DNA of 22,493 nucleotides from a virus: the IMG/VR virus record IMGVR_UViG_3300035070_000262, positions 1 to 22,493 of that record. One strand, written 5' to 3'. Shown piece after piece: positions 1 to 13,294 of this stretch (positions are counted from its first letter, which is position 1; each line of letters starts with the position of its first letter). The notes beneath the pieces are model-generated. The model was not told where the DNA came from. It did no database searches and saw only the letters and a list, made by a program, of their open reading frames with translations. Both the position numbers and the translations under genes were made by a program.

Positions 1-671
1 AATTTTGGTTCTGGTTCTAAACATGCGTCAGCCGCAGGTTTTAAAAAATCGTAAGCCCAATTGACTAAATCTTCTACGGTAGTTTCGTAGGTTTTAATTG
101 GTCCTTTTTTGTCTCTGCTTACAGGTTGCACAATAGTAAGTTTTACTTTTGCGTTTTCGTAAGGGTATCTGTCAAGTATGCCTAAAGCATAAATCTTAAG
201 CTGTAAGTTATTTGGATCTACAGGCCAAGCGCCTGTCTTTAAATCTATTATCTCTATTTCTTTTTTTGTAATGATGGCACAGTCAAGCGTACCCCAAAGG
301 TGTGGGTTTATCTCCTCCAGGGTAACTTGTTCTTCAATCAATCTTTTACCGCCTAACTCTTCGTGACGTTGCAATATGTAATCTGCGTATTGTTTAGCCA
401 TACCCAACATTTCATCGTCAACAACAACTTCTATTTTTTCGTCATCTTCTTCTATGACTGTAGTAAATGTTTTACCTGCGTAGTGATCTTCTAAAGATGA
501 ATCTTTAATTTGGTCTTTCAAAACCTTCTCTGCCATTTCGTGTATCAAAGTACCACGCTCCGCAGGGTAACTTGTTCTGTACGGAGAACCTTGCGACATG
601 ACAGGAGACGCTGGACATTTAGTCCAACGCTCCGCCGCCGAGGGGGAAAGTAAAGCATGTTTACTCGGCAT
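1..671 (-). CDS. DUF2800/Cas4-like PD-(D/E)XK nuclease, 3' end off the window (partial)
   Basis: The minus-strand frame stays open from ATG at 671 to the left edge (223 complete codons, no stop). I translated it by hand. It starts MPSKHALLSPSAAERWTKCP, the typical opening of the DUF2800 phage family, a relative of Cas4/RecB-type nucleases. The expected active-site pattern follows: IEEQV near residues 112-116, GTLD with D130, IDLKTG with D143 and K145, then a QLKIY element near 157-161. Such proteins usually act in phage DNA replication or recombination; the exact substrate is unknown. The start overlaps the end of the excisionase-like gene by 11 nt, so the two are probably co-transcribed and translationally coupled. 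The C-terminal part is outside the window. The nuclease assignment is strong, the biological role is inferred. Confidence 0.85.
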   Translation of the reverse strand, partial: MPSKHALLSPSAAERWTKCPASPVMSQGSPYRTSYPAERGTLIHEMAEKVLKDQIKDSSLEDHYAGKTFTTVIEEDDEKIEVVVDDEMLGMAKQYADYILQRHEELGGKRLIEEQVTLEEINPHLWGTLDCAIITKKEIEIIDLKTGAWPVDPNNLQLKIYALGILDRYPYENAKVKLTIVQPVSRDKKGPIKTYETTVEDLVNWAYDFLKPAADACLEPEPK

Positions 672-861
672 TTGGGTCAACTACCTCTGAGTTAATAAAG
701 GCTTGTATATCTTGTTTGTCGTACAAGATTTTACCGCCTACTTTTCTGTAACGTGGACCTTTGTTTAGACCGCGCCAATTCTCTAATGTTCTATGCGACA
801 TCTTGAGTATTCTGGCCAACTCTTTGGTCGTTACTAAATCTAGGTTTTCTGTGGTTTCCAT
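661..861 (-). CDS. Excisionase-like small DNA-binding protein (HTH_17/AlpA type winged helix)
   Basis: This 66-residue protein is essentially one HTH_17 domain. It has TTKELARIL (11-19), a recognition-type helix SHRTLENW (22-29), and the wing GPRYRKVGGKILYDKQDI (35-52). This family includes AlpA, phage Xis proteins and other small activators or directionality factors. ATG at 861 has a good Shine-Dalgarno (AGGAG, 4 nt upstream). It lies near the integrase, is divergent from the plus-strand regulator-like gene and overlaps the downstream DUF2800 nuclease by 11 nt. The location favours a role in excision or early-gene control. It could instead be a transcription regulator, as sequence alone does not separate these roles. 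Confidence 0.8.
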   Translation of the reverse strand: METTENLDLVTTKELARILKMSHRTLENWRGLNKGPRYRKVGGKILYDKQDIQAFINSEVVDPNAE

Positions 862-887
862 ATTTCTCCTGTTTCTACTAAAATATA

Positions 888-912
888 CCTTTATTTGTTA
901 TGAAAATAAAGG
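888..912. promoter_or_regulatory. Operator-like perfect inverted repeat in the divergent control region
   Basis: CCTTTATTT (888-896) and its exact reverse complement AAATAAAGG (904-912) are separated by 7 nt. The repeat lies in the 59-nt gap between the excisionase-like gene and the plus-strand gene if the latter starts at 921. A minus-strand TATATT (882-887), a possible -10 element, directly abuts it, so a bound protein would cover the -35/spacer region of leftward transcription. No convincing -35 hexamer is visible. Function as an operator is inferred; the repeat itself is direct. The region is AT-rich, but a 9/9 match including a GG/CC end is less likely to be chance. Confidence 0.5.
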
Positions 913-920
913 CAACAAAA

Positions 921-1136
921 ATGGTAGGTAAAATTTTAAGCGACTTTGATGACCCAATAATGCTTCGTAATAATAGAAAGCCTGTCTGGATTAATAGGTA
1001 TCTAAACGAAGATTTATTAAAGTTTGCTGAGTCGCAAGGTAAAGACCCAAGAGACGTAGCTGAGTATTTAATCTCAGTAGGTCTCAATTCATCTGAGCGC
1101 AACCAAAACATCATATTTGATTTCGAAAATCTGTAG
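921..1136 (+). CDS. Small ribbon-helix-helix-like protein, candidate lysogeny regulator
   Basis: This is the only convincing plus-strand gene. From ATG 921 it gives 71 residues. A strand-like segment KPVWINRYL (20-28) is followed by two predicted helices, NEDLLKFAESQ (29-39) and DPRDVAEYLISVG (42-54). This resembles the Arc/MetJ/CopG fold in outline only; I recognise no specific family. ATG 921 is preferred over ATG 900 because AAAGG lies 8 nt upstream, while 900 has no Shine-Dalgarno and sits inside the 888-912 inverted repeat. The 3' end overlaps the integrase end by 26 nt (convergent). Position and fold suggest a repressor acting on the divergent promoter region, which is inference. Confidence 0.6.
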   Translation: MVGKILSDFDDPIMLRNNRKPVWINRYLNEDLLKFAESQGKDPRDVAEYLISVGLNSSERNQNIIFDFENL

Positions 1137-1977
1137 GTTGTAACAGAGCTTCTATATGCTCGCTCACTAGCGCAGCAGACTCAATAGCCTTGTCCTTATG
1201 AATGTGTGCATACCGCGCAGTTGTCTTTTGATCTTTATGTCCAAGCAAATGACCAACTTGCGCTAACGGTAATTTTTGTAAACTAAACGACGCGAAAGTG
1301 TGGCGTAAGTCATGCAATCTAAACTCTTCTATACCAAGTGTTTTTCTGATTTTATCCCACGCTCTCCGAGGCGCTTGAATGTTAAATATTCTCTCGCCCT
1401 CCTGCGCCCTGCGATTGATTATATCCAAGGCGCGTTCGCTCAAATGTATGACTCTTTCCTCGCCGTACTGATCCGTTTTATGTTCGCTCAAGACAAGCAT
1501 ATTGCCTTGTAAGTCTGTCCATTTAGCTTTCGCAATCTCACCGCATCTAGCTCCTGTTAAGAGCAGTAGCCAGATGAAATCTACGGATTCTTGATAGCGT
1601 TTGTTTTTGTATAACAAGTCGAGTTGTTCTTTGACTTGAATAAGTTGTTCGCTTGTTAGGTATAGCTTTCTTTTGTTTTCTTTGTTCTTGGCAATGTGTG
1701 TCGCAGGATTGCTTTCAACCAAGCTAAGAGTGATAGCCAGATTAAACATAGATCTAAGCAATGTTAATACTTTGTTAGCTTGTGCAGGCGCTGTCTCTGA
1801 CAAACTAAAATGCAGTTTGGCTATGTCACCTCTGACAACTTTGTTGAGTTTTTTCTGGCCCAATGGACCTGCAATGTATTTGTGGTAAATCCTGTTTAGT
1901 TCTTTGATTGTCTTTGTTTTACGTCTAGCGCAATCCTGTTGATAAAGATTGTGTAAGTCGTTGATACTTTCGTGCAT
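1111..1977 (-). CDS. int: Tyrosine-family phage integrase
   Basis: This 288-residue tyrosine recombinase has a SAM-like core-binding domain at about 5-95 and a catalytic domain at about 105-270. The full catalytic set is visible: R144 (TGARCGEI), K167 (SEHKTDQ), H222 and R225 (HDLRHTF), H247 (LLGHKD) and Y256 (ARYAHI). It should carry out site-specific integration and, with a directionality factor, excision of the prophage. It is shorter than many 350-400 residue integrases because it lacks an N-terminal arm-binding domain. An in-frame TAA directly precedes ATG 1977, so the short N-terminus is real, and GGAG lies 6 nt upstream. It has its own promoter candidate (2003-2031). No tRNA-like attachment core is seen next to it. 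Confidence 0.95.
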   Translation of the reverse strand: MHESINDLHNLYQQDCARRKTKTIKELNRIYHKYIAGPLGQKKLNKVVRGDIAKLHFSLSETAPAQANKVLTLLRSMFNLAITLSLVESNPATHIAKNKENKRKLYLTSEQLIQVKEQLDLLYKNKRYQESVDFIWLLLLTGARCGEIAKAKWTDLQGNMLVLSEHKTDQYGEERVIHLSERALDIINRRAQEGERIFNIQAPRRAWDKIRKTLGIEEFRLHDLRHTFASFSLQKLPLAQVGHLLGHKDQKTTARYAHIHKDKAIESAALVSEHIEALLQPTDFRNQI

Positions 1978-11272: not shown

Positions 11273-11929
11273 TTACCTATTTGATATTTGTTCAGTCCAA
11301 GTTGTACTTGGGTTTGACTGTTCAGACCATGTTCCTGTTGACGTTAATTCAGTCCAAACGCCAACGGTCTCAGTTTCGTCCTCCCATTTTAAACGACCAC
11401 TAACAGAAAAGGAAGATAAACTAGATAAAGCAGATTCAGCATTAAATCTAGTATTTAAATCAGATCCAACACTTGCGCTTGCAGAAATGGCTGAAGCGCC
11501 TGTTGTTATCTGTGTTCCTGCTGGTGATACAGATGCAGCTACGCTGATATTAGCTTCACCTACGTCTATTTGTGTTCCTGTTGGCGACAATGAAGCGCTT
11601 ACTGATATTGCGCTTTCTCCGAGATCTATTTGCGTCCCTGCAGCAGCAATAGAAGCCGTTCCTGATATGGAACTTGCTCCTGTAAGAATTAATACACCTG
11701 CTTGGGACGTTGAAGAACTTGCGCTAATGCTTGCTGCGCCTAAGTCTATTTGTGTGCCAGATGAAGATAACGAAGCTGTTGCCGAAATATTTGCTGCACC
11801 AACGTCTATTTGTGCGCCAACAGCGCTTATAGAAGCTAATGCAGATATAGATGCTTCGCCTTGTTCATACTGTAAATCACCGTAATTTGATTTACCGTAA
11901 CCACCATACCCATAACCTTGTTGGGCCAT
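11273..11929 (-). CDS. Tandem-repeat tail/fibre-related protein
   Basis: This 218-residue protein has three parts. A Tyr/Gly-rich N-terminus ([19 protein letters not shown], 3-21) is followed by six 20-residue repeats plus a partial seventh (about 25-156). The C-terminal part has repeated Trp-Thr/Ser-Glu motifs (VWTELT, TWSEQS, TWTEQ). Each repeat follows the pattern xISxxASxSxxGTQIDxG, which would suit a regular beta-solenoid or stacked-beta fibre. It is encoded directly upstream of the tail fibre and 4 nt after a small structural gene. A role as a fibre shaft or adaptor is inferred; the repeat structure is direct. Confidence 0.65.
11462..11857 (-). repeat. Coding tandem repeat, 60-nt unit (20 residues), six copies plus a partial one
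   Basis: Residues 25-44, 45-64, 65-84, 85-104, 105-124 and 125-144 of the host protein align without gaps, ending in VG, LG, TG, LG, VG and TG. Residues 145-156 begin a seventh copy. GTQID or a close variant sits at the same place in all units except the third (GVLIL) and sixth (GTQIT). The DNA copies have diverged at many third positions, so the array is old or under selection and not a fresh expansion. Confidence 0.85.
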
Positions 11930-13266: not shown

Positions 13267-13294
13267 AAAAAAAGGGAGGGGTTATCCCCTCCCT
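13267..13294 (-). terminator. Strong intrinsic terminator after the major capsid gene
   Basis: On the minus strand, GGGAGGGG (13274-13281 complement partner arm), a 4-nt loop and CCCCTCCC form a G+C-rich 8-9 bp stem, followed by seven T residues (13267-13273). It starts 11 nt after the capsid stop, which is doubled (TAA TAA at 13307-13302). This is a textbook rho-independent terminator and the only strong one in the window. Since more late genes lie downstream, it must be partial or bypassed. Confidence 0.92.

Follow-up and report, generated by a model that had tools for sequence, protein, structure and literature searches.

A conserved divergent gene pair encoding RHH-like and HTH_17 proteins as a candidate regulatory hub in uncultured marine podovirus-like phages

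A pair of small divergent genes, encoding a 71-aa protein with ribbon-helix-helix (RHH)-like features and an HTH_17 DNA-binding protein, is, judging from gene order and sequence comparison, a conserved regulatory hub in related podovirus-like phages of marine origin, none of them cultured. The pair sits where the replication and virion genes meet, in genomes whose other genes lie nearly all on one strand, and is probably the main on/off switch of these phages. The preferred reading, to which a probability of roughly 0.5 is assigned, is that the hub controls the leftward replication operon and acts as a prophage switch in integrase-bearing phages. The palindrome between the two genes is restricted to one lineage.

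Organisation of the locus

The window, i.e., the whole stretch of DNA analysed, is a 22,493-base virus record. The 66-aa HTH_17 (MerR/excisionase-like) protein is encoded on the minus strand at 661–861 and the 71-aa RHH-like protein on the plus strand at 921–1136, leaving a 59-nt divergent promoter/operator gap (862–920). The HTH_17 gene heads the leftward replication operon and its end is overlapped by the next gene, which encodes a DUF2800/PD-(D/E)XK exonuclease (3–680, minus strand; Pfam DUF2800 E 6e-46). On the other side, a tyrosine integrase (1111–1977, minus strand; Pfam Phage_integrase E 2e-16) is convergent with the 71-aa gene, their tails overlapping by 26 nt. Both the divergent pair and the convergent integrase had been described in the original prediction and were confirmed in the sequence. 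An alternative start for the 71-aa gene at ATG 900 was rejected, as it has no Shine-Dalgarno sequence and homologues start near the equivalent of 921. Scanning of the window found no Rfam families or tRNAs.

Two further features of the window were recorded away from this locus. A perfect inverted repeat, AGGGAGGGG-TTAT-CCCCTCCCT, lies 3' of the major capsid gene (13273–13294) and is possibly a terminator. A minus-strand gene at 11273–11929 encodes a possible tail or fibre protein made up of repeating ISASAS..GTQIDxG-like units.

Conservation of the pair and loss or gain of the integrase

A profile search for the 71-aa family picked out 264 stretches encoding it, and the 80 best were retained; gene order was compared across 107 loci and 28 members were aligned. 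No homologues were found in cultured phages, and the only relative in bacterial genome contigs is on a Rhodobiaceae MAG contig (L139) with phage gene content. The HTH gene lies upstream of the 71-aa homologue on the opposite strand in every testable locus of the 107, so that the divergent arrangement first seen in the window is unchanged across its relatives; this constancy of gene order is the firmest finding of the analysis. The integrase behaves differently. It occupies the convergent position in 44 loci (the window and 43 others) and is absent from 55 with sufficient sequence, 52 of which keep the HTH gene, although the integrase-less contigs may be incomplete or represent derived losses. 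As gene order is kept with and without the integrase, the HTH/71-aa pair is the constant part of the locus and the integrase the variable part.

The gene content preceding the 71-aa homologue also varies. A DUF3310-type gene, its identity confirmed by Pfam in three representatives, is found there except in the window's lineage and a sister lineage with 60% identity. These observations bear on a tentative alternative in which the pair times the lytic programme, setting early versus late transcription, while the integrase is a passenger freely gained and lost in the adjacent slot. The 55 loci with no integrase in the slot are in keeping with this; three of the records concerned are 30–36 kb long and searching them gave no integrase match at all. 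The insertion of DUF3310 in the rightward operon of most relatives points the same way, as do T7-like cyanophages that integrate without classic lysogeny or a known repressor (PMC8776855). However, the 44 loci with a convergent integrase in the same slot fit a lysogeny role in those phages, and the possible incompleteness of the integrase-less contigs weakens the count on the other side.

The annotation of the HTH gene is affected by the same distribution. Its product is a small HTH protein of the Xis/HTH_17 type (Pfam HTH_17 E 5e-11; PHROG 66 E 4e-9), and PHROG 66 is annotated as ‘excisionase and transcriptional regulator’. Above the Pfam cut-off, HTH_17 was matched by the HTH genes of the window and of the Rhodobiaceae contig, with weaker matches in two others. 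The term ‘excisionase-like’ is no more than the best family label: since the pair persists without an integrase, neither ‘excisionase’ nor ‘lysogeny’ is specifically supported. The originally envisaged switch between lysogeny and excision is partly supported, but a device dedicated to it does not hold throughout the family, given the 55 loci that keep the pair with no integrase in the slot. Comparison of positions 860–2100 with 190 alphaproteobacterial genomes in search of attP/attB sites gave, besides L139, short chance matches only, none of them in a tRNA gene.

Some relatives carry additional genes. The contig G004, which has no integrase, encodes CsgF and CsgG (curli export), a FecR-domain protein and a CHASE2 and adenylate/guanylate-cyclase protein among its virion genes (L136:5710–10388), and a similar gene set is present in G006. 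This is unusual phage cargo. Curli-type genes have reportedly been mentioned for a marine methylophage.

The intergenic gap and its palindrome

The 59-nt gap contains a perfect 9-bp inverted repeat at 888–912, a candidate operator with arms CCTTTATTT (888–896) and AAATAAAGG (904–912) and a 7-nt spacer, GTTATGA. It adjoins a candidate leftward -10 element, TATATT, on the minus strand (887–882); both had been predicted and both were found as described. Reading of the sequence places a poor leftward -35 candidate, TTTATT, inside the right arm, which ends in AAAGG, a likely Shine-Dalgarno sequence 8 nt 5' of ATG 921. The repeat lies across the putative leftward core promoter, and the right arm also takes in the putative ribosome binding site. 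A consensus promoter scan did not report the leftward TATATT (882–887). It did report a plus-strand candidate, TTTCCA-18-TAAAAT (855–884), which would place the transcription start at the left arm of the repeat, but as the scan gave 4 sites against 3.7 expected this rightward candidate is weak.

Whether the repeat is more than chance depends on the scale considered. Perfect 9-bp repeats with a spacer of up to 20 nt occur three times in the window, and shuffled windows contain 2.9 on average; of 5000 shuffles of the gap itself, 66 (~1%) contained one. The repeat is thus not unusual window-wide and marginally unusual within the gap. No further copies of the pattern were found in the window with up to three mismatches. 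The repeat could also act as an RNA hairpin that hides the Shine-Dalgarno sequence of the RHH-like gene, giving translational control. The right arm carries AAAGG ahead of ATG 921, and minimum-energy folding yields the hairpin. However, its stability is no better than that of shuffles (z -0.36), transcription from the sole rightward promoter candidate would begin within the left arm, and the repeat is not conserved; translational control of this kind is very improbable.

Conservation was assessed first among close relatives, comprising the window and 12 IMG/VR contigs that encode the same 71-aa protein with 97–100% identity. Both arms are invariant in these 13 genomes, and only positions 897 (G/A, in the spacer) and 917 vary in the gap. 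As 917 is the only variable site outside the spacer, the arms do not stand out from the rest of the gap in their conservation. The expected co-variation of the two arms was accordingly not demonstrable: the arms are constant, but almost the whole gap is equally so. The pattern CCTTTATTT-N7-AAATAAAGG was found in 14 viral contigs: the 12 close relatives and two others (L049, L052), where it lies beside or inside unrelated genes.

Relatives whose protein identity is ~60% or lower do not have the repeat, and its predicted conservation is thus limited to the close relatives; none of intermediate protein identity (70–90%) were found. The sister lineage L055–L060 does not carry it despite having the same divergent pair and integrase; its 51-nt gap holds an imperfect 8-bp repeat with at best 7/8 matches (shuffles 0.056). 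Perfect 8-bp repeats are present in the gaps of the Rhodobiaceae contig, TACACTTT-N8-AAAGTGTA (shuffles 0.051), and of L028 (shuffles 0.153). None above chance was found in the gaps of the remaining lineages. In L055, L139, and L028 these loose repeats of comparable size lie upstream of the leftward -10, which is suggestive, but the statistics do not support it. That 888–912 is an operator is a plausible guess from the sequence, for the window's lineage only. A chance repeat in an A+T-rich gap is a serious alternative, somewhat less likely than not, and would be compatible with a real hub. The window-wide frequency equal to that of shuffles, the absence from other lineages, and a gap that in close relatives is just as invariant outside the repeat all fit chance; the ~1% frequency within gap shuffles and the position over promoter elements argue against it.

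The low variation extends beyond the gap. Among the 13 close relatives, variable sites number 10/216 in the 71-aa gene, 105/841 in the integrase, and 61/201 in the HTH gene. The gap and 71-aa gene together (862–1136) show several-fold less variation than the flanking integrase and HTH genes, third codon positions included. Selection may account for this, as may an anchor for recombination or a site so far overlooked, e.g., attP. In the clades compared, the 71-aa gene is likewise less variable than most of its surroundings. Four relatives (L003, L008, L010, L012) have HTH alleles ~20% different in DNA beside an unchanged gap and 71-aa gene, and these diverged alleles look as if they were swapped through recombination. 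All four retain nearly the same recognition helix, so the swaps are uninformative as to which protein reads the palindrome.

Fold of the 71-aa protein and the reader of the gap

Searches of Pfam, PHROG, and PDB sequences with the 71-aa protein gave no match, to RHH proteins or any other. AlphaFold2 modelled two members as single chains, both at low confidence, with pLDDT values of 60 for the window protein and 62 for the other. The former (pLDDT 60) shows a strand at residues 22–24 and helices at 26–38 and 43–52, the order of elements in an RHH fold, whose strand-helix-helix core spans ~45 residues, and the latter (pLDDT 62) has two helices in the same place. All PDB chains matched with a Z of at least 2 are RHH proteins, though weak matches: TacA2 (2.6), VapB (2.5), and TacA3 (2.1) for one model and ParG (2.6) for the other. 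Using hhalign against 21 RHH_1 proteins from alphaproteobacteria, residues 22–55 align gap-free in the RHH register (P 0.047); of 30 column-shuffled control families, one scored higher. Taken together, the helices, the register, and the fold matches make an RHH fold likely but not certain. The original RHH-like label agrees with the helix pattern, register, and weak fold matches, but finds no counterpart in a sequence match to RHH proteins. The family would then be a new RHH-like family of marine phages.

The alignment of 28 members also shows conserved motifs outside the putative RHH core, an N-terminal DFDDPI..RN.RKP and a C-terminal D-(I/F)-x-x-L. These motifs are one reason to consider that the HTH_17 protein reads the gap and the 71-aa protein is a non-DNA-binding partner, e.g., an anti-repressor or a host-interacting protein, with a conserved acidic C-terminal tail. 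The RHH fold is itself a prediction, and the close relatives pair HTH alleles of near-constant recognition helix with a constant gap, which leaves the HTH protein a candidate reader. As all reported fold matches of the 71-aa protein are RHH proteins, a reversal of roles is unlikely, and the RHH-like protein is retained here as the putative reader.

Absence of a classical repressor

The original prediction held that no CI-type repressor is present within the window, and none was found in the records of its relatives either. HTH_3 (Cro/CI) and Peptidase_S24 (LexA-like) domains were found in none of 15 records, 12 of which carry an integrase, while control genomes were positive; the 15 records are linear and possibly incomplete. 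Ten accessory proteins of G001, a relative of 31.6 kb, were also scanned. They gave an HTH_17 protein, a C5 methylase, and two weak HTH matches, with no CI-like protein among the ten. From their positions, the two weakly matching proteins resemble a replication protein and a small terminase subunit. The methylase of G001 is a C-5 cytosine DNA methylase (L130:107–1432).

Proposed mechanism

In the preferred reading the RHH-like protein, transcribed rightward, would bind the divergent gap as a dimer or tetramer and repress the leftward promoter of the HTH-exonuclease-replication operon, while also limiting its own synthesis. The leftward HTH_17 protein would be the probable opposing regulator and, in phages that carry an integrase, a Xis-type accessory factor. 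In integrase-bearing lineages, repression would keep the genome silent as a prophage, whereas in those with none it would time early gene expression. Mutually antisense transcription of the convergent integrase and RHH-like genes could add interference. A more specific and doubtful form of this proposal is that a widespread marine podovirus lineage decides between lysis and lysogeny by setting 71-residue RHH repressors against a divergent HTH_17 protein, with neither CI nor LexA, the same pair being a lytic timer where no integrase is present.

Comparison with known systems

The hub of 71- and 66-residue proteins with its 59-nt control region is a testable candidate for lysogeny control in integrase-bearing marine podoviruses, and is found with and without an integrase in many marine contigs. 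Small phage RHH repressors at divergent promoters are familiar from Arc and Mnt of phage P22, where Mnt helps to maintain lysogeny. However, P22 also has the CI-type c2 repressor, of which no equivalent was found here, and the 71-aa protein has no sequence similarity to RHH families. The layout of a repressor divergent to a small HTH protein is shared with C/Cox of P2, in which the HTH protein stands first in the early operon and has a further role in excision. There, C is not an RHH protein and int lies on the strand of C, whereas here the integrase gene points towards the RHH-like gene and is not always present.

Among T7-like phages, homologues of known repressors were not found in integrating cyanophages (PMC8776855). 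For LUZ100, a T7-like podovirus with an integrase, a small non-CI MarR-like regulator has been proposed as the lysogeny switch, but it is co-transcribed with the integrase and its proposed target is a phage RNA polymerase promoter (PMC10134795). The archaeal virus SSV1 encodes F55, a tiny RHH protein that represses early promoters as well as its own transcription and is the chief factor in keeping the virus lysogenic (PMC9608457). F55 differs from the present case in that its 11-nt site is repeated within and among promoters, in place of one inverted repeat, and in that no divergent HTH partner is described in the sections considered (PMC9608457). F55 shows that one small RHH protein can maintain lysogeny (PMC9608457).
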